From positions 1 through 44,674 of the forward strand of contig SGZH01000006.1 of NCBI GenBank assembly GCA_004214175.1: DNA of 44,674 nucleotides, given 5' to 3'. How positions within the stretch are numbered: the stretch's first letter is position 1; every line of letters starts with the position of its first letter. Of this stretch, positions 1,993 to 8,985 are shown in pieces. This DNA comes from Flavobacteriales bacterium (GTDB taxonomy: Bacteria; Bacteroidota; Bacteroidia; Flavobacteriales; Flavobacteriaceae). Below the pieces are notes generated by a model. The model ran no database searches. It had not been told where the DNA came from and worked only from the letters and a program-made list of their open reading frames with translations. Position numbers and translations under genes: made by a program.

Positions 1993-2009
1993 TGTTTTAT
2001 TGTTTTTGG

Positions 2010-2153
2010 TTAATTATCATTTAAGGTCTTCATAAATATTGCTGCTAATAGGTAGGCCAACATTAAAATTGGTAAGCCGATGATTTTATGGATAGGATTC
2101 ATCTGGCTACTAAGCTGGTTAAAAAAATTCAAATATTTTTTTAAATTTTTCAT
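2010..2153 (-). CDS. Small single-pass membrane protein (47 aa), unknown
   Basis: An ATG-started frame of 47 codons begins MKNLKKYLNFFNQL and has one hydrophobic segment at about residues 25-41 (IGLPILMLAYLLAAIFM). Its N-terminus is basic, so an N-in helix is likely. It ends 17 bases before the glmS start on the same strand and may share its transcript. I do not recognise the family. It differs in sequence from the two 37-residue membrane peptides at 4298 and 6676. Support comes only from the intact frame, its position and its membrane-like composition. Confidence 0.45.
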   Translation of the reverse strand: MKNLKKYLNFFNQLSSQMNPIHKIIGLPILMLAYLLAAIFMKTLNDN

Positions 2154-2272
2154 GTTTTTATTTTTGTTCCTATAAACACTTTTACAATGGTTAGGTTCGT
2201 TTATTCCTTCTATTGAAAATAGGACTGTGATAGGTTCTTGATAGAATACTAATTGATTATTATACTATATTT

Positions 2273-2295
2273 AAAAAAAAAGGTGCACCCACCTT
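2273..2295 (-). terminator. Rho-independent terminator
   Basis: On the minus strand the stem AAGGTG/CACCTT closes a 4-nt loop and is followed by a run of eight T. It lies after the outer-membrane protein gene and its decayed copy, and before the 47-residue membrane peptide gene, so it separates the barrel gene from glmS. Confidence 0.65.
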
Positions 2296-2315
2296 AGTAA
2301 CACTTTAAAAAAATA

Positions 2316-2446
2316 AAAATTATAATCTGTATAAAGCACCGATACCGGCCCGACTGTGATTGTAGCTCCAAAAGCCTATTTACCTAATACTTGGGCATTG
2401 ATCCCCCAGCTTACCGAAAACCAATAGTTGATCCCAAAACCTTCTT
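2316..2446 (-). pseudogene. Decayed 3' remnant of an outer-membrane beta-barrel gene
   Basis: Read on the minus strand this stretch gives GFGINYWFSVSWGINAQVLG, then an in-frame stop after the next Lys, then a tail ending GPVSVLY. It aligns with the end of the intact neighbour at 2475 (LGLNVWFSDQWGLNLNTLGK ... SLGVLY). Another stop lies just before the matching part. This is what is left of a tandem second copy, or of a longer ancestral gene, whose 5' part has been lost. The 321-base stretch between the neighbouring genes holds only this remnant and the terminator. Confidence 0.65.
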
Positions 2447-2474
2447 AGTTATCATTATTGTTCGGAGAATCGTA

Positions 2475-3119
2475 TTAAATTTTGTATAAAACTCCCAAAC
2501 TTGTTTGGTGATGGTTGGTATTGCTACTCCCAACGCCCCATTTACCAAGGGTATTTAAATTAAGGCCCCATTGATCCGAAAACCATACGTTAAGCCCTAG
2601 CCCAACATTGTAAGTAAATACATCGGTAGGATCTACCAAGTTGCTTGGATTTTCTTGACTGCTAAAGTCTCCAAAATGACTGACACCCATTCCAAGCGAT
2701 ACATAAGGTTCGTAGGTTTTAGCACCCAAAAAATAATAGTTGGCAGCCACATCAAAGGCCAGGTATCCCATATCATTGCCTCCTTCTGATTCGCCGAGGA
2801 TGGTACTGCCATCAACCACTTTACCATCTTTAGCCCAGTTATGTGAGAGAATAGCTTTGGCTTTCCACTTGCTAGCAATGTTGGTTTCTACACTTAGGTA
2901 AATAGGAACACCTCCAAAAGCCCAATGGTCGCTGTTGGTAAGGTCTTCGAATCTAGCTCCTGAATTGTTAAGAGCATTGAACCCTAAACCCAGCACATAT
3001 TCAGTACCGGCACCCGTTTTTGGGGTCGTTTCTTCTTGAGGGCTTTCTTGTTCATTTTGAGCGTTCATCATTAAAACAGTGAACATACTTGCAAATAATA
3101 ATAGACTTGATTTTTTCAT
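2475..3119 (-). CDS. Outer-membrane beta-barrel protein (OmpA N-terminal/OmpW-like)
   Basis: The 214-residue protein has a signal peptide (MKKSSLLLFASMFTVLMMNA, cleaved near residue 20), then a short acidic, Pro/Thr linker. From about residue 40 amphipathic strands of alternating aromatic and glycine residues run to the end (EYVLGLGFNAL, MGYLAFDVAANYYFLG, PYVSLGMGVSHFG, FTYNVGLGLNVWFS, TSLGVLYKI). The terminal strand is typical of small eight-stranded barrels assembled by BAM. No C-terminal OmpA peptidoglycan domain is present, so it resembles only the barrel half of flavobacterial OmpA-family proteins. A degenerate second copy of the end lies just downstream. Its exact role is unknown. Confidence 0.8.
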   Translation of the reverse strand: MKKSSLLLFASMFTVLMMNAQNEQESPQEETTPKTGAGTEYVLGLGFNALNNSGARFEDLTNSDHWAFGGVPIYLSVETNIASKWKAKAILSHNWAKDGKVVDGSTILGESEGGNDMGYLAFDVAANYYFLGAKTYEPYVSLGMGVSHFGDFSSQENPSNLVDPTDVFTYNVGLGLNVWFSDQWGLNLNTLGKWGVGSSNTNHHQTSLGVLYKI

Positions 3120-3312
3120 GATAAATTGATTGTTTGAATTAATTGATTGTCTGAATTTGTTGTAATAGGGATCAGTTATAAGGATGTTTGCTGGCAGACA
3201 CCATTAAAATAGATCCACAGTATTTTTTTTTATAGACTTATTATATAAAGCTTTTTATAATCTATTATAATATTATATGAAGCAGACAAAAAAAAATACA
3301 AAACTCTCATCC

Positions 3313-3492
3313 TTATTTTTTTAAAATCTTTTTTTGCTTTAAGGATTTTTGGATCAACTCTCTTATAAAAGCGCTCACCGGTTTCGGTCTTTTGTTATTG
3401 TTAAGTGCTTCGTTTAAAATGACCCAATTAATTTGACTCACCTCCTCAGAGGTAAGCAATACTTGTAGTTTTTCAGTTAATTTTTCACTCAT
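3313..3492 (-). CDS. Small basic protein (59 aa), ribbon-helix-helix-like
   Basis: An ATG-started frame of 59 codons begins MSEKLTEKLQVLLTSEEVSQ and ends with a basic tail (IQKSLKQKKILKK). The pattern of a short strand (EKLQVLLTSEE), a helix and a second helix (RPKPVSAFIRELIQKSL) resembles small ribbon-helix-helix DNA-binding proteins, but this is a structural guess without a search. It lies between the first NusG-like module and the barrel gene on the same strand, with AT-rich gaps of 134 and 193 bases around it that show nothing else. Confidence 0.5.
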   Translation of the reverse strand: MSEKLTEKLQVLLTSEEVSQINWVILNEALNNNKRPKPVSAFIRELIQKSLKQKKILKK

Positions 3493-3626
3493 GACTTTGT
3501 GATATATTAATGTAATTATTAAGTGATAATAGTAAAATTAAAGATTAGTAAGATGTTATTATTATTTTTTTGCTTTATAAAAAATAATTAACCGTCTCTT
3601 TTTTTAAAAGTGTTGGAATACTCCTA

Positions 3627-4109
3627 TTATGCACTAATCGCTTCCTTAGTAGTGATAGAAACTTTTATGCCCAACTCTTTAAGTACCAGTTGTACTCGGT
3701 TAGCATTAATATTTTGAATCACACCATCTTTTCCCTTAAAGGGACCTTGAGAAATAGACAGACAGTCTCCTGCTTTTAAGGTTTGTACTTTGGCAGCCAA
3801 TACCTCCCCAGATAGCCAGCTTTTGAGGGTTTCTATTTCTTGATCTTTAACGATAGCGGGACGATTGAGCCAAAATAGATAGCGCACTACACCCGGAGCT
3901 GCGTACACCAATTCGCGTTCTTTGGGTGCTAAATGCACAAAAAGGTAGGAACTAAATAAAGGAACCTCAACTGTTTTTTTACGATCAGACCATTGTCGTA
4001 CTTCTTTTACTATAGGACAATAGACATCGATTCCAGATTTCTCCAATATCAAAGCTGTTTTCTTTTCGTTCCTTGCTTTTGTATAAACGACGTACCATTT
4101 TTTTTTCAT
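3627..4109 (-). CDS. Specialised NusG-family antiterminator (UpxY/RfaH/LoaP-like), copy 1
   Basis: Members of this family bind RNA polymerase in place of NusG and let it read through long operons, usually for polysaccharides or secondary metabolites. The 160-residue protein has an NGN domain (about residues 4-100, starting WYVVYTKARNEKK, with YCPIVKEVRQWSDRKK and PLFSSYLFVH) and a C-terminal KOW domain (about 110-155, QGPFKGKDGVIQNINANRVQ). It is shorter than housekeeping NusG and lacks its acidic insert. It is the last gene of a three-gene module; the preceding small gene ends 13 bases upstream. No polysaccharide operon follows in the window. The paralog at 5987 is about 90% identical. Confidence 0.9.
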   Translation of the reverse strand: MKKKWYVVYTKARNEKKTALILEKSGIDVYCPIVKEVRQWSDRKKTVEVPLFSSYLFVHLAPKERELVYAAPGVVRYLFWLNRPAIVKDQEIETLKSWLSGEVLAAKVQTLKAGDCLSISQGPFKGKDGVIQNINANRVQLVLKELGIKVSITTKEAISA

Positions 4110-4122
4110 AAACTAGTATACC

Positions 4123-4272
4123 TTACTCTGACTGGTTTAAAATTTTTTCTATTTGTAACAACTGCTTACCACTAATAGTAAGTCTAGAAGTTCGGTTGCC
4201 GAAGGTGTCATAAAAATAAGCACCCAATAGATTTTCTTTAGTAATTACTAATTCTTCAAATGGATTTTTCAA
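4123..4272 (-). CDS. Small conserved module protein (49 aa), TTG start, copy 1
   Basis: A 49-residue frame with a TTG start reads MKNPFEELVITKENLLGAYF at its N-terminus and ends IEKILNQSE. It matches the ATG-started copy at 6486 at 43 of 48 positions, which decides the TTG start here. The middle (YDTFGNRTSR) and a C-terminal helix (GKQLLQIEKILNQ) are the most conserved parts. I do not recognise the family; there is no signal peptide or membrane segment. It lies 13 bases before the NusG paralog and 25 bases after the membrane peptide, so the three are probably co-transcribed. Confidence 0.7.
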   Translation of the reverse strand: MKNPFEELVITKENLLGAYFYDTFGNRTSRLTISGKQLLQIEKILNQSE

Positions 4273-4297
4273 TGGTCAGTTATTTTTTAAATTTTTA

Positions 4298-4411
4298 CTA
4301 AGCAAGGATAATAAATCGGATGTTTATGAGCATCGATATTCCAAGAATAACGTATAGGAGTATTCTAATAGATCTGAGAAAACTTTTGCTAATTAATTTT
4401 GAATTTTCCAT
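4298..4411 (-). CDS. Tiny membrane peptide (37 aa) of the NusG-like module, copy 1
   Basis: The frame starts MENSKLISKSFLRSIRILLY and has one membrane segment covering about residues 17-36 (ILLYVILGISMLINIRF). It agrees with the peptide at 6676 at about 20 of 37 positions: the MEN start, the LYV-LGIS-L-NIRF core and the final Ala. The length is the same, while the flanking noncoding DNA is not conserved. That pattern supports translation. It is the first gene after the leader element. The function is unknown; a regulatory leader peptide or a membrane tether are possibilities. Confidence 0.65.
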   Translation of the reverse strand: MENSKLISKSFLRSIRILLYVILGISMLINIRFIILA

Positions 4412-4452
4412 AATATTAAAAGCTTATATAAATATTTATTTATAAAAAAATT

Positions 4453-4480
4453 CACGACTTCGTCGGGTCGCTCACACAAC
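4453..4480 (-). promoter_or_regulatory. Conserved leader element with ops-like core, copy 1
   Basis: This 28-base element is identical at 24 positions to the one at 6832-6859, within AT-rich DNA that is otherwise not conserved. On the minus strand the blocks are GTTGTGTGA, CGAC, GACG and AGTCGTG. CGAC and GTCG can pair across 8 bases to form a small hairpin. The 3' half resembles the E. coli ops site GGCGGTAGCGTG recognised by RfaH. The element lies 41 bases upstream of the first small gene. I infer a pause or recruitment site for the NusG paralog. Confidence 0.6.
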
Positions 4481-4625
4481 AATTTATCTAAAAAGAAGTT
4501 TTTTTAATTGTATTTAGGAGTTTTATAACATAGCACCCAAATAAAATGTATATCTTGGTTGTAAAATTATTATAGTATTCTAGTTTAATCATATATAACT
4601 AGGCAATCCACATAATTTCATGTAA

Positions 4626-4673
4626 ACTCACCTATACTCACCTATTTTAATTTAAAAAATAATCTTATTTTTG
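4626..4673 (+). promoter_or_regulatory. Promoter with a tandem 10-bp repeat upstream of the kelch-like gene
   Basis: The decamer ACTCACCTAT occurs twice head to tail at 4626-4645, one helical turn apart. It lies upstream of a -7 box TATTTTTG at 4666-4673. The repeat covers the region where the -33 contacts would be, so it may be an activator or repressor site. The ATG follows the -7 box by 8 bases, so the leader is almost absent. Confidence 0.5.
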
Positions 4674-4681
4674 TGACGCTT

Positions 4682-5935
4682 ATGAAAAATATAATTTTAT
4701 TTATTTACTTGTTATCCTACGTATTTATTGGGTTTTCTCAAAATCCAAAAATCATTGACACACTTGAAATACACAATCAGATTAAGTCATACGGTATAGA
4801 TGAAAAAAATTTAGATTTTAAATATCATTTTTTTAGTGATATCATTTTTTTAAACGATTCAACTCTCTTATACAACCCCAACTCAACTCTTCATTTATTT
4901 AAGATACATTTAGGTGATATCCCTAGGGTATCCAAAATTTCGAAAGAAACTCATTCAGGTCATAATTATAATAGACATTTATTTTTATACGATGATATTT
5001 TATATAGTTATGGTGGTCAAGGTCTATTTAATTCATTTCCTGATCTTTTATACTTTGATTATTCAACTAAAGATTGGATTATAAAAGAAATAAAAAACTA
5101 CCCATTTGATGCACAAAAAGTTTTAAACTCCTGGAAAATTGGTAATAAAATCATAGTTCTTTTATCAACTTTTTCAGAAATTGAAACAGCTAAACTTGAT
5201 ACAAAATTACAGTTATCTTTTGGAGAGATAAATCTTGATAATTTTGAATATATTCAAAAAAGAAATTTCACTAGTACTACTCAAGAATTGTTATTTCAAT
5301 CTGGTTTAGGGTTTTTTAGAGGAAATTATATATATGATTCTGATCTTTATTCTTTACACGGATATTATCAGGAATATGGTAATATTAAATACAGGATTTT
5401 TGATAAAAAATTAGCTTCTTTCCAAAGAACCACTGAATTAGATAAATTAAAACCTGTTAATGGCTTTTCATACATCTATATTAGAGATTCGACAATTTGT
5501 TATAGAGATCAACACGGAAAAATAGAATATCTTGATGTCGATTTAGGAAAAACATTGCATAGTAAAGACTATTTTAAACTATATAAATCTAAATCAAAAA
5601 TTATATCACCATATTATATTATCAGTATAATCATAATAATTTGTATAGTTATTTTTTACTTTATTAAATGGAAAAAAGCATCTTATTTAAATAGTTTGAC
5701 AGATACATCAAAACAGGAAATATTTATTATTGAAAATAAATTAAAAAATCTAAAACCAAAGATCATTACCAAAGAACAACTAGATGATTTATTAGAGATA
5801 TCACATCACACTTATGAAACTACAAAAACAAAAAGAAGTGAAATAATTAGCATTATAAATAAAAATACTAAAATAAAAATTACAAGAGTTAGAAAACAAA
5901 ATGATAAAAGATTTTTTGATTATAAAATAAGTTAG
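4682..5935 (+). CDS. Membrane-anchored kelch-like protein with small cytosolic domain
   Basis: The 417-residue protein has a signal peptide (MKNIILFIYLLSYVFIGFSQ) and an exported region of about 285 residues with repeated aromatic strands and one kelch-like motif (YSYGGQGLFNSFPDLLYFDY). One membrane helix follows (about 307-327, YYIISIIIIICIVIFYFIKW), and then about 90 cytosolic residues. The last part (LDDLLEISHHTYETTKTKRS ... KRFFDYKI) resembles a domain I associate with the ends of other flavobacterial kelch/membrane proteins and may be a winged helix; this is from memory and unverified. I chose the ATG at 4682 over a GTG at 4673 because the GTG lies in the -7 box. The gene is very AT-rich and separates the two NusG-like modules in the opposite direction. 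Confidence 0.7.
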   Translation: MKNIILFIYLLSYVFIGFSQNPKIIDTLEIHNQIKSYGIDEKNLDFKYHFFSDIIFLNDSTLLYNPNSTLHLFKIHLGDIPRVSKISKETHSGHNYNRHLFLYDDILYSYGGQGLFNSFPDLLYFDYSTKDWIIKEIKNYPFDAQKVLNSWKIGNKIIVLLSTFSEIETAKLDTKLQLSFGEINLDNFEYIQKRNFTSTTQELLFQSGLGFFRGNYIYDSDLYSLHGYYQEYGNIKYRIFDKKLASFQRTTELDKLKPVNGFSYIYIRDSTICYRDQHGKIEYLDVDLGKTLHSKDYFKLYKSKSKIISPYYIISIIIIICIVIFYFIKWKKASYLNSLTDTSKQEIFIIENKLKNLKPKIITKEQLDDLLEISHHTYETTKTKRSEIISIINKNTKIKITRVRKQNDKRFFDYKIS

Positions 5936-5986
5936 TTTAAATAACATATTTATTTGGTCGATCAGACGATTTAACATTAAAAAATA

Positions 5987-6469
5987 TTATGCGCAAATAG
6001 CGTCTTGTGTGGTAATGGAAACTTTTAAACCCAACTCTTTAAGTACTAGTTGTACTCGATTGGCATTGACACTTTGGATCACCCCATCTTTTCCTTTAAA
6101 AGGACCTTGACCAATGCATAATGAATCTCCGGCTTGCAGGTTTTGCACCTTTGCAGCTAGGACCTCGCCCGATAGCCAGCTTTTGAGGGTTTCTATTTCT
6201 TGGTCTTTAACGATAGCTGGACGATTGAGCCAAAATAAATAGCGCACTACACCCGGAGCTGCGTACACCAATTCGCGTTCTTTGGGAGCTAAATGCACAA
6301 AAAGGTAGGAACTAAATAAAGGAACCTCCACTGTTTTTTTACGATCGGACCATTGTCGTACTTCTTTAACCGTAGGACAATAGACCTCGATTCCTGATTT
6401 CTCCAACATCAAAGCAGCCTTCTTTTCGTTTCTTGCTTTTGTATAAACGACGTACCAATTTTTTTTCAT
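5987..6469 (-). CDS. Specialised NusG-family antiterminator (UpxY/RfaH/LoaP-like), copy 2
   Basis: This 160-residue protein has an NGN domain from WYVVYTKARNEKK to about residue 100 and a KOW domain with QGPFKGKDGVIQSVNANRVQ. It differs from the copy at 3627 at 16 positions. Five lie in the first 33 residues and eleven in the last 51; residues 34 to about 109 are identical. The differences in the KOW half could give different partners. Its stop lies 51 bases from the stop of the convergent kelch-like gene, and no same-strand target gene follows until copy 1. It may act in trans at another locus. Confidence 0.9.
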   Translation of the reverse strand: MKKNWYVVYTKARNEKKAALMLEKSGIEVYCPTVKEVRQWSDRKKTVEVPLFSSYLFVHLAPKERELVYAAPGVVRYLFWLNRPAIVKDQEIETLKSWLSGEVLAAKVQNLQAGDSLCIGQGPFKGKDGVIQSVNANRVQLVLKELGLKVSITTQDAICA

Positions 6470-6485
6470 AACCTAGTATATGGTA

Positions 6486-6632
6486 CTATGACTGGTTTAA
6501 AATTTTTTCTATTTGTAGCAACTGCTTACTACTAATAGTAAGGCTAGAAGTTCGGTTGCCAAAGGTGTCATAAAAATAAGCACCCAATGGGTTTTTATTA
6601 GTAATTACTAATTCTTCAAAAGGATTTTTCAT
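6486..6632 (-). CDS. Small conserved module protein (48 aa), copy 2
   Basis: This 48-residue protein starts MKNPFEELVITNKNPLGAYF and ends IEKILNQS. The frame stays open upstream for 20 more codons, but similarity to the copy at 4123 begins exactly at this ATG, so this start is preferred. It is rich in Thr and Ser in the middle (GNRTSSLTISSKQ) and has a probable C-terminal helix. No family is recognised. The NusG paralog begins 16 bases after its stop. Confidence 0.7.
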   Translation of the reverse strand: MKNPFEELVITNKNPLGAYFYDTFGNRTSSLTISSKQLLQIEKILNQS

Positions 6633-6675
6633 AGGATAGATCGTTAAGGTTGTTAATTGATTTAAATGAAAGGTA

Positions 6676-6789
6676 TTAGGCAACCAATACAAATCGAATG
6701 TTCAGTAGTAAAGAAATCCCTAACATAACATAAAGAGATACTTTAATAAATCGCATTGAATTTCTGTTGATAAGTCTCGTGTTTTCCAT
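6676..6789 (-). CDS. Tiny membrane peptide (37 aa) of the NusG-like module, copy 2
   Basis: The peptide starts MENTRLINRNSMRFIKVSLY and has one membrane helix at about residues 17-36 (LYVMLGISLLLNIRF). It has exactly the same length as the peptide at 4298 and matches at about 20 of 37 residues, mostly in the hydrophobic half. It is the first gene after the leader element and promoter of copy 2. The function is unknown. Confidence 0.65.
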   Translation of the reverse strand: MENTRLINRNSMRFIKVSLYVMLGISLLLNIRFVLVA

Positions 6790-6831
6790 AGCTAAAAAAT
6801 TTAAATTATTGTACTTTATTTAAGTTATCTG

Positions 6832-6859
6832 CACGACTCCGTCCTGTCGGTCACACAAC
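6832..6859 (-). promoter_or_regulatory. Conserved leader element with ops-like core, copy 2
   Basis: This is the partner of the element at 4453-4480 (24 of 28 bases shared). On the minus strand its core GACGGAGTCGTG matches E. coli ops GGCGGTAGCGTG at 8 of 12 positions without gaps. It lies 42 bases before the first small gene and about 60-90 bases downstream of the predicted promoter, so it would be in the transcribed leader. A hairpin CGAC/GTCG is conserved. Confidence 0.6.
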
Positions 6860-6920
6860 TATTTCTTTTTTTTAATTATTGAGAGTAATTAATTTTTGAT
6901 AAAATCATTACTTGAGAGTG

Positions 6921-6951
6921 CAAATATATAATATCAAAATACACAAAACAA
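6921..6951 (-). promoter_or_regulatory. Promoter of NusG-like module copy 2
   Basis: On the minus strand a perfect -7 box TATATTTG (6928-6921) is preceded by a TTG at 6951-6949, and also a TTTTG closer in, as candidates for the -33 element. Transcription would start near 6914, giving a leader of about 125 nt that contains the conserved element. Confidence 0.5.
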
Positions 6952-6959
6952 GATAAAAT

Positions 6960-7211
6960 GACATTTTATTACGTTTATTAACATTTATCTATAGACAAAC
7001 GGTAATATTTTAAATCTTCTAAATCTAGTATGTATCAATAAGGTATCAAATAAAAAAGTATAAATCCCTAATAAATAACATACTAGCATGGTAGTAGAAT
7101 AGTATTTTTCTCTAATGATTCTGCTTATAAAACATTTGAAAAAAGAAAAACCCTACAAAAAAAAAAAAAAAAAAATAGATGAAAAGTAGTTAACTTTCGA
7201 TGTATAAATTA
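6960..7211. other. Gene-free AT-rich stretch with a 19-base poly-A tract
   Basis: Together with 7257-7432 this is the longest gene-free DNA in the window. It contains a run of 19 A at 7157-7175, a likely slippage site. I found no credible small frame or RNA gene, and no similarity to the leader of copy 1. Confidence 0.6.
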
Positions 7212-7256
7212 AAAAAAGCATCACTTTTAGGTGATGCTTTTAACAGCGAAGCTGTT
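7212..7256 (-). terminator. Tandem hairpin terminators
   Basis: The stem GCATCAC/GTGATGC is flanked by A and T runs, so it can work on both strands. A second hairpin AACAGC-GAA-GCTGTT follows at 7242-7256. On the minus strand they would end the transcript of the rhodanese gene, about 180 bases after its stop codon. Confidence 0.7.
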
Positions 7257-7432
7257 TGTTTTCTAATACTCTATCCCCAAAATATTAGATTGCAATATTA
7301 AAAAACTTAATTTTATTACGCAACTAATTTTTAAAATAACTATAGTTTAAGTGCTTTTTATTATAGTTAAAATGATATTATATATAGGTATTTGGTATTT
7401 TATTTCTAAAATCCTAACTAATAAGCTCTGTT

Positions 7433-7846
7433 TTAATTCCTTAACTCTAATTTATTTTCTTCCCAAAGTAAAATACCACCTTCCATGTCATAAATTTTTG
7501 TAAAACCTAGTTCTTTTAATGCAATAGCGGCTTGTGCACTTTGACCTCCTCTATTACAATACACATAAACAGGTTTGTTTTTGTCTAATATTTTTACTTT
7601 TTCTTTAAAATCGGCGCTGGTAATACAAATATTTTGTGCTCCTTTGAGATGATTGCCTTTAAATTCTTCTGGAGTTCGAACATCGATAAGCTGAATTGAA
7701 CGATCTTTATAAATGGCGTCGTAAACTTGTTGAGGAGAAATAAGCTCAATTTCGCCTTTAATCGATGTTATATCAGAGGGAGTTTCTTTACAAGCACCAA
7801 AAATAATACTAACTAGTAGTAAGGTAAAAATTATAGATTTTCTCAT
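7433..7846 (-). CDS. Rhodanese-domain lipoprotein
   Basis: The 137-residue protein has a lipoprotein signal (MRKSIIFTLLLVSIIFGAC, Cys19) and one rhodanese domain (about residues 35-135). It shows LIDVRTPEEFKGNHLKGAQN and the active-site loop CNRGGQS with Cys97, so the catalytic cysteine is present. Single-domain rhodaneses move sulfur or handle thiols; the lipid anchor places this one in the periplasm or at the outer membrane. It stands alone, with a long 3' stretch ending at tandem hairpins. Confidence 0.9.
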   Translation of the reverse strand: MRKSIIFTLLLVSIIFGACKETPSDITSIKGEIELISPQQVYDAIYKDRSIQLIDVRTPEEFKGNHLKGAQNICITSADFKEKVKILDKNKPVYVYCNRGGQSAQAAIALKELGFTKIYDMEGGILLWEENKLELRN

Positions 7847-7952
7847 TATGAAGATTAGATTATTATAATAGGCAATTTAGAAATTTATAAAATAGAAACA
7901 ACAAATTATTATTATTATTTATTTAGTCAGTAAACTATTTTATATAATAAAA

Positions 7953-7976
7953 AAGGAGCCTACTAAGAGGCTCCCT
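7953..7976 (-). terminator. Rho-independent terminator
   Basis: On the minus strand the stem GGAGCCT/AGGCTCC is followed by TTTTTTATT. It lies just after the T9SS-sorted protein gene and before the rhodanese gene. Confidence 0.8.
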
Positions 7977-7998
7977 TATTTTTTAAAAGAGACTTTTA

Positions 7999-8985
7999 TT
8001 ACTTTTTAAATACTTTTTGAGTTAAGGTCCCCAATGAAGTTTCTACATTTAAAATATAAATACCCTTAGCAAGATCTGAAATATTCATTTTCCCATTTTG
8101 TAATTTTACTCCGGTATCTTGTCCCAACAAATTATGAAGACTTGAACTTTTTACAATAACAGAAGAAGGAAATTCAACATTTAAAACTTCGTTAGCAGGA
8201 TTTGGATACACCGATGCTAAGTCAGCTATCTGGTCTGAATTTGCTAAAACCTCCGCTTCCCCCTCAATGGTAAATGCCACACTTGCAAAACTTACTCCTA
8301 GGTTGGTTAAGGAGGTCCAAGAAGTTGCTCCAGCAGCAAAAATATCATTAGGATCAATTAAATGAGCCTCATTAACACCATTTTCAGGAACTCCAGCATC
8401 AAACCAATTCCATCGGGTTTCACCCACTGTTAAATCATCAAGATTAACTCTTGGATTAGCAACTAACCAGTAATCTCCAGCTGGTAAAACCAATGGCTCT
8501 CCCCCATTAGCGATTGTTACATCTACAATAAATGTATAATCACTTTCATCGTTTATTATCTCCACAACAATGGGAGGAATGGGTAACACGGATAGATCTA
8601 CAAACTCTACAACACCTGTACCGGGTTGTGTTGGATCACCAACAGGGGTATTTGTTTGATCATCATTTTCATAGATATGAATATCAAAACCGTTAATTAC
8701 CTGATCTAAGTCTCCAATATTTTGAAAACCATAAACAGTAATTTTGTCGATTCTGGTAGATTCTGCAAGGTTAAAATCATCGGTAGAATAAACGCCTAAT
8801 TCTGCTGCAGTAGAATAATCTGAAATAATACCATTTCCTCCAACAGAAGGCTGATCCCAAATAATGGCCTGCTTAGTATTGGCGGGTGGTGTGCTTGTAG
8901 AAGTATTCGATTGTGCAGTAAATTCTTGTGCATGTAAAGAAAGTCCAAACAAAAGAACTACTAACATTAATGTAATTTTTTTCAT
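7999..8985 (-). CDS. Secreted protein with T9SS type A sorting domain, unknown
   Basis: The 328-residue protein has a signal peptide (MKKITLMLVVLLFGLSLHAQ). A central region of about 230 residues is rich in Asp, Asn, Val and Pro without cysteines and probably forms beta-sandwich folds. The C-terminal sorting domain (about 255-328) has SVYPNPANEVLNVEF, DLAKGIYILNVET and a final KVFKK. Such domains send proteins through the type IX system to the cell surface or medium. The central region (IWDQPSVGGNGIISDYS, GDYWLVANPRVN) is like surface proteins annotated only as hypothetical. No enzyme motif is seen. It is monocistronic, with its own terminator. Confidence 0.85.
   Translation of the reverse strand: MKKITLMLVVLLFGLSLHAQEFTAQSNTSTSTPPANTKQAIIWDQPSVGGNGIISDYSTAAELGVYSTDDFNLAESTRIDKITVYGFQNIGDLDQVINGFDIHIYENDDQTNTPVGDPTQPGTGVVEFVDLSVLPIPPIVVEIINDESDYTFIVDVTIANGGEPLVLPAGDYWLVANPRVNLDDLTVGETRWNWFDAGVPENGVNEAHLIDPNDIFAAGATSWTSLTNLGVSFASVAFTIEGEAEVLANSDQIADLASVYPNPANEVLNVEFPSSVIVKSSSLHNLLGQDTGVKLQNGKMNISDLAKGIYILNVETSLGTLTQKVFKK

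Follow-up and report, generated by a model that had tools for sequence, protein, structure and literature searches.

Paired UpxY-type modules of a flavobacterium carry a conserved ops-like leader element and probably descend from the head of a polysaccharide locus

The stretch of DNA analysed here, called the window throughout, is a whole contig of 44,674 nucleotides (nt) (SGZH01000006.1, assembly GCA_004214175.1) from an incomplete Flavobacteriales genome (1.33 Mb, 69.6% complete). It carries two minus-strand modules, A and B, each consisting in order of a 33-nt leader element, two small open reading frames (ORF1 and ORF2) and a gene for a NusG paralog with NGN and KOW domains (Table 1). We think it likely that each module originated as the regulatory head of a polysaccharide locus, with a UpxY-family antiterminator recruited at the element as at an ops-like switch. 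The element itself is best read as an equivalent of ops, the recruitment signal of RfaH, used by UpxY in cis or in trans. A preliminary description of the window had listed two modules of the same order and spacing, with proteins of 37, 48/49 and 160 residues. Order and sizes were borne out on the minus strand, whereas the spacing is similar but unequal, the gap between ORF1 and ORF2 being 25 nt in copy A and 43 nt in copy B. The 28-base element it described is likewise present, as part of a slightly longer, bipartite element of 33 nt. The modules are not a chance arrangement, because a third copy with identical gene order occurs at locus L068 in a genome of the same genus and the changes in ORF1 and ORF2 between copy B and L068 are mostly synonymous.

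Both NusG paralogs exceed the cut-off (100 bits) of the curated UpxY model NF033644, and by family membership they are specialised UpxY-family antiterminators, in keeping with their earlier designation as specialised NusG paralogs. The NGN domain (PF02357) was found in the two proteins with E values of 2e-18 and 1e-19. The KOW motif scored below its own Pfam cut-off (16.9 and 16.5 vs 22.3 bits), and the NF033644 match spans the KOW region. The signature QWSDRKK is almost invariant in the NGN domain of these UpxY proteins (alignment A4), and RfaH differs there.

A related element was first recognised by reading the leaders of other UpxY genes, and the family that emerged has the approximate form TG(T/G)GAC-N6/7-GGCGAAGCC(A/G)T(G/A). 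A model built from ten sequences (R1) was searched in 149 genomes of the window's family. It matched within 1.5 kb of 22 of the 36 UpxY loci outside the window (two of these matches being R1 seeds), in all 22 cases on the UpxY strand; six matches lie upstream of upxY and 16 downstream, between upxY and the following gene. At E ≤0.01, ten of the 12 matches outside the window fell within 1.5 kb of UpxY loci.

A second model, R2, was made from 32 sequences, comprising 30 of 39 loci and the two window copies; the loci not used as seeds were six near-duplicates from Flavobacterium and three with weak matches (L003, L089, L097). Among 246 genomes of the order, R2 matched in 45 of the 63 that carry UpxY and in two of the 183 that do not (Fisher 5e-32). 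Removal of three seed genomes left 42/60 vs 2/183, and counting by genus gave 24/30 vs 1/52 (p 4e-14). The 63 UpxY-bearing genomes were hand-picked among the matches listed, 53 above the curated cut-off and ten lower (71.5-99.5 bits); nine of these ten reach profile position 156 or beyond, and the tenth (G292) is partial. With the 53 alone, a hand count gave 40/53 vs 7/193. Outside the window's family, also counted by hand, 26 genomes have both UpxY and the element, 16 UpxY without the element, two the element without UpxY, and about 162 neither. Some of the R2 seeds come from Flavobacterium, to which several of the order genomes also seem to belong.

The 53 R2 matches in the order comprise 29 within 3 kb of upxY, 28 of them on the same strand, and 24 that lie farther away or on another contig; 22 of these 24 are in genomes that carry UpxY. 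Such far elements in UpxY-bearing genomes make action in trans plausible for the family, as the preliminary description had suspected. We looked at 20 regions behind elements, namely 17 far regions (covering 18 of the 24 far matches in the order), one element 2.6 kb after upxY (G386) and two far elements of the family set (G025 and G031). On the element strand, one early long ORF per region, not always the very first, was chosen for a Pfam search, which confirmed a polysaccharide or nucleotide-sugar gene in 17 of the 20 regions. The other three have an ABC transporter followed by ORFs judged by eye to be glycosyltransferase-like, a DUF2061 gene followed by ORFs that look sulfate-activation-like by eye (L210), and no match. 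A DUF2061 gene at L116, behind upxY, sits between it and a GDP-mannose dehydratase gene. At L116 as at L210, genes that look sulfate-activation-like by eye come after the DUF2061 gene, which suggests sulfated polysaccharides at these two loci. A protein of ∼155-190 residues that looks winged-helix-like by eye is often encoded early behind the element (L207, L212, L213, L216, L218, L219, L223 and L240); that of L216, the one scanned, had no Pfam match.

Across the phylum, 53 of 296 genomes, a set in which UpxY was not counted, have an R2 match at E ≤0.05. Eight of these matches were opened and, by eye, lie near polysaccharide-type or UpxY-like genes, although the element position for L238 is wrong. 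Three elements from another family (f31; L237, L239 and L242) lie 0.25-0.42 kb before genes that look, by eye, like polysaccharide-export or chain-length genes. The window itself was searched with a third model, R3 (29 seeds, excluding the window copies and L068), because R2 contains the window copies. The two leader elements ranked first and second, and the next match had an E value of 1.3. No third element site was found in the window's genome, and the element found in G161, the genome that contains L068, was one alone. Rfam matched nothing in window positions 2000-8000 at E 1.

The core of the element is a short stem closed by a three-base loop, which in copy B is GGA. The inner three stem pairs form in all 32 seed sequences, and two pairs show changes on both sides, with A-T in place of G-C in five and in three seed sequences, the latter three being one lineage. 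Both the covariation score and the percentage paired exceed those of shuffles (0/500 reach them). Core position 11 is invariably T and position 2 invariably G at 33 further sites, 30 of which have a G(T/G)GA(C/G) half 6 or 7 nt before the core. The pattern used to assign core positions fixes positions 3, 4, 6 and 7 and requires C or T at 8; positions 2 and 11 are free in it, though favoured by the model, and one of the 34 loci (L200) was left unparsed. Element A precedes a T run and was flagged as terminator-like (4454-4471, minus strand); element B has no T run and was not flagged.

Set against the ops sequence GGCGGTAGCGTG, the element core GGCGAAGCCGTG has both ends in common, GGCG and CGTG, and places a C(GRA)G mini-hairpin, followed by CGTG, where ops has its loop. 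The exact pause register is G-10, T-1 and G+1. The element shows what would be expected of an ops-like signal, a conserved mini-hairpin on the sense strand and at the head of putative target operons. The ops loop runs from G4 to A7, closed by a C3:G8 pair and with T6 flipped, and RfaH reads this hairpin in the non-template DNA (PMC5995543). The ops sequence also fits the consensus pause, in which the flanks slow the polymerase and the centre is variable (PMC6391919). DNA mini-hairpins with a GNA or GNNA loop on a G-C stem are very stable, and that of GCGAAGC has a melting temperature of 78 degrees (PMC4686876).

What follows the modules has to be judged from relatives. The contig ends at window position 1, just past a gene that by our own reading is glmS, so that the earlier statement that no operon follows is no fact about the genome; since the window is the whole contig of an incomplete genome, the sequence past glmS is out of view. 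The same-genus genome G161 (CAJIZF010000001.1, FRAM18_bin221) has a single module with the same element, both small ORFs and a UpxY 96% identical. Genes for a rhodanese, a 584-residue protein, a NUDIX protein and a phosphoribosyltransferase are neighbours of the module in both L068 and the window (in L068 judged by eye; in the window Pfam identified rhodanese and NUDIX). The G161 module (L068/L112) is followed by a 55-residue relative of the window's 59-residue ORF, genes resembling those of outer-membrane beta-barrel proteins (OMP), a GDP-mannose dehydratase and an epimerase. Further along come glycosyltransferases of family 2, a Wzz match that stays under its cut-off, a transferase of the WecA type and CpsB/CapC. 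In that assembly several of the genes just listed have interrupted or short frames. The first syntenic genes, for the 59-residue ORF and the OMP, are present in the window ahead of the contig end. The window OMP is 53% identical to L112:3062-3580 and 48% identical to L117:4213-4854, its own Pfam match being below cut-off. Another same-genus genome, G152, has the element, UpxY, a similar OMP (48%), a WecA-type transferase and SLBB export. Given this orthologous locus and the 59-residue ORF and OMP kept in the window, its gene content indicates that the window modules most likely head a polysaccharide locus, a position seen at L112 itself, while the window contig stops after OMP and glmS. An autonomous module without an operon was accordingly rejected, on the orthologous locus and the contig end.

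ORF1 and ORF2 may be taken as real proteins because purifying selection is detectable on each in at least one comparison, as the preliminary description had expected. Between copy B and L068, ORF1 has ten synonymous changes and no nonsynonymous ones (0/2000 neutral placements as low), and ORF2 has eight and three (P 0.0015). The evidence is weaker for ORF2 of copy A, with four synonymous and six nonsynonymous changes against B (P 0.23, not significant) and seven of each against L068 (P 0.075); this frame must use a TTG start, an in-frame stop lying two codons 5' of it. AlphaFold2 modelled ORF2 as three strands and a helix (mean pLDDT 69.8), and a fold search with this model gave no significant structural match (best E 2.3). 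ORF1, ORF2 and the 59-residue ORF had no Pfam match at cut-off, and ORF1 and ORF2 none in NCBIfam either.

Their distribution marks ORF1 and ORF2 as lineage-specific proteins encoded between the element and upxY. Both are carried by two of the five UpxY-bearing genomes of the genus; in the other three the element is just 81-100 nt from upxY, so there is no room for them. Searches for ORF2 in 149 and in 397 genomes of the family were convincing only in the window's own genome, the next best matches (E 0.0035 and 0.001, respectively) both having internal stops. A membrane-peptide ORF ending within 300 nt upstream was found at 3 of 97 UpxY loci (L003, L011 and L068), against 2.3 expected from shuffles. 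Among leaders behind elements, 4 of 30 have such an ORF (0.27 expected from shuffles; 36 of the 66 leaders, shorter than 90 nt, were left out), which shows no general rule because three of the four belong to the window lineage and the fourth is L011. The L011 leader, from another genus of the family, has a 41-residue membrane-peptide ORF between element and upxY whose sequence is unlike ORF1. The ORF2 searches, and a count at UpxY loci close to that expected from shuffles, led us to reject ORF1 and ORF2 as general companions of UpxY. The preliminary description had asked whether they always precede a NusG paralog, and the absence of the small proteins from most relatives' UpxY loci is an outcome it had itself named as refuting its idea.

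If the element works as ops does, RNA polymerase would start upstream of it and pause there, about 50 nt into the leader. A UpxY-family NusG paralog would be recruited at the pause, where it would recognise the core with its GRA mini-hairpin, probably in the exposed non-template strand, and perhaps also the upstream TGTGA half, probably as duplex DNA. UpxY would then travel with the polymerase and suppress early termination along a long operon. As the element precedes upxY in this genome, the transcripts on which UpxY acts would include its own. Copy B may serve the element of copy A in trans, and since it is cut off from the operon by copy A and a convergent 420-residue gene, it may now act mainly in this way. 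The protein encoded by the convergent gene (4673-5935, plus strand) begins like one with a signal peptide, matches Kelch weakly (E 0.007) and has one hydrophobic span, and L068 has no counterpart of it between module and operon. ORF1 and ORF2 could possibly modulate UpxY, a purely putative role.

Several observations weigh against an ops-like switch at the head of a polysaccharide locus. Stem pairs changed on both sides are no more numerous than in shuffles (227/500 reach the observed number), and the window elements, folded alone as DNA, are unremarkable (z -0.95 and 0.07). The likeness to ops amounts to 8 of 12 letters, with P 0.003 in one register and ∼0.08 over 28 registers; similarity by letters alone, not significant across all registers, was rejected as an argument. 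No R1 match lies within 1.5 kb of 14 of the 36 UpxY loci in the family set, and 18 of the 63 UpxY-bearing order genomes have no R2 match. The elements of the window and L068 are atypical, with a GAC/GTC stem and 19-24 bits from the held-out model. Within the window no polysaccharide-specific gene stands behind the modules, and a search of its 70%-complete genome for the continuation of the locus gave just a weak partial match with the WecA-type gene of L112.

Conservation of the stem would hold equally if the nascent leader transcript formed an RNA hairpin that UpxY binds once it has emerged from the polymerase, and one described NusG paralog, LoaP, is tied to such a hairpin, that of dfn (PMC12691694). 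We nevertheless consider this unlikely: the stem has just 3-4 pairs, a GNA-type loop stabilises DNA hairpins (PMC4686876), the constant T after the stem fits a pause site better than an RNA fold, and the TGTGA half is conserved outside the stem, none of these points being decisive. It is less likely again that an unrelated DNA-binding protein uses the element as its operator, or that the element works as an attenuator, its link to UpxY being no more than a shared neighbourhood at polysaccharide loci. The T run behind copy A and its terminator-like flag would suit such a role, as would the winged-helix-looking proteins (by eye) that often open operons behind far elements, but copy B lacks the T run and 45 of the 47 element-bearing order genomes carry UpxY, even with upxY on another contig, the elements lying on the sense strand.

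That the two small proteins work specifically with UpxY in this lineage, for example as a membrane tether and an inhibitor in the part of UpxZ, choosing which UpxY copy is active, would add to the ops-like switch rather than replace it. The purifying selection on both, their place between element and upxY in all three module copies found, and the presence of two UpxY copies in one genome are consistent with this idea. It seems doubtful to us, as neither protein has a Pfam match at cut-off or an NCBIfam match, or is found at other UpxY loci, ORF2 has no significant fold match, and ORF2 of copy A has a TTG start and no significant selection against B. Hardly credible by comparison is the view offered in the preliminary description, of autonomous regulators without target operons or a membrane-linked antitermination system. 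No operon lies directly behind module B in the window, and some upxY genes in other genomes are far from elements. The orthologous L068/L112 module, however, heads a polysaccharide locus, which contradicts autonomous regulators without an operon; elements far from upxY still head polysaccharide loci, and the membrane peptide is no general companion.

An ops-like switch read by UpxY invites comparison with three described systems. The capsule-locus UpxY of Bacteroides, which prevents premature termination in the 5' leader (PMC7819879), belongs to the same family by the curated model and heads polysaccharide operons with a leader, a position that the orthologous module of L112 also has. Unlike the UpxY/UpxZ arrangement of Bacteroides, the window has two lineage-specific small proteins beside upxY; no upxZ was recognised there by Pfam or NCBIfam, no UpxZ sequence being compared directly. 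A further difference is that in the order studied the element is often downstream of upxY or far away. Bacteroides UpxY reportedly reads both the non-template strand and the upstream duplex DNA at a pause, behaviour that would agree with a bipartite element such as the present one. With RfaH and ops of Proteobacteria the present system shares a short element placed where polysaccharide operons begin, a tiny G-to-A loop closed by C-G and followed by CGTG, and a lone regulator gene that can be far from its elements. It differs in its three-base loop (four in ops) and the extra upstream TGTGA half, and the window proteins do not reach the cut-off of the RfaH model TIGR01955 (79.5 and 83.9 vs 144.5 bits). 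Unlike the helical form of RfaH, their KOW region is predicted to form strands, with moderate to low confidence (block pLDDT 67-71). LoaP and dfn also pair a specialised NusG paralog with a leader hairpin, but the window proteins fall below the LoaP cut-off (NF033641; 49.6 and 50.1 vs 125 bits), and no pause is discernible at the dfn hairpin, which is assumed to be bound as RNA (PMC12691694). The element is not reported in those parts of the literature on UpxY, NusG paralogs, ops/RfaH and Flavobacterium that our search covered, with Saba et al. 2024 (Nat Commun 15:10862) and Chatzidaki-Livanis et al. 2009 outside it.

The features of the modules are given in Table 1. The elements of copies A and B are 85% identical across their 33 nt. 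From ORF2 to mid-upxY (3847-4250 vs 6207-6610) the two copies are ∼85-100% identical, and clearly less so outside this segment, a pattern in the aligned copies that suggests gene conversion between them. The promoter call for module B uses the Bacteroidota promoter consensus.

Table 1. Features of modules A and B and of the genes that follow them in the window (dN/dS, ratio of nonsynonymous to synonymous substitution rates)
Feature	Position	Strand	Basis or remark
Probable Bacteroidota-type promoter, module B	6921..6951	-	TTG-N20-TATATTTG; same arrangement in same place in L068, from 7521
Ops-like leader element, copy B	6832..6864	-	R3 rank 2 in window, E 0.03
ORF1 copy B, 37-residue predicted single-span membrane peptide	6676..6789	-	Selection vs L068; hydropathy 2.13 over 19 residues
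ORF2 copy B, 48 residues, ATG start, predicted beta-beta-beta-alpha	6486..6632	-	Selection vs L068; AlphaFold2
UpxY-family antiterminator copy B, 160 residues	5987..6469	-	NF033644 133.3 bits; PF02357
Ops-like leader element, copy A	4453..4485	-	R3 rank 1 in window, E 0.003
ORF1 copy A, 37-residue predicted membrane peptide	4298..4411	-	dN/dS 0.16 vs copy B; hydropathy 2.37
ORF2 copy A, 49 residues, TTG start	4123..4272	-	90% identity with copy B
UpxY-family antiterminator copy A, 160 residues	3627..4109	-	NF033644 129.4 bits; 90% identity with copy B
59-residue ORF after UpxY A	3313..3492	-	55-residue relative after UpxY in L068; dN/dS 0.12 (comparison overruns the L068 stop by a few codons)
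Outer-membrane beta-barrel-like protein (OMP)	2475..3119	-	Syntenic after UpxY in two same-genus genomes
glmS-type aminotransferase, last gene before contig end	148..1992	-	SIS and glutamine amidotransferase domains

It is possible, though we stop a little short of expecting it, that a DNA mini-hairpin with a GRA loop, a pause site and a preceding TGTGA(C) together form one old address for UpxY at the surface-polysaccharide operons of Bacteroidota and their relatives, used in cis and in trans. A survey of 2020 gave the mode of recruitment as unknown for specialised NusG paralogs encoded inside their target operons (PMC7593976). An element defined by sequence predicts UpxY targets across the order, far ones included, so that the regulons of many flavobacteria can be listed and tested. 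Since that survey, the recruitment of Bacteroides UpxY and of LoaP has reportedly been explained. If the proposed address is real, RfaH and ops would represent a single branch of a broader code, with NusG paralogs reading tiny hairpins that extrude from the non-template strand. The element would also be an independent case of non-template DNA hairpins as regulatory signals, with a loop type that is exceptionally stable in DNA chemistry.

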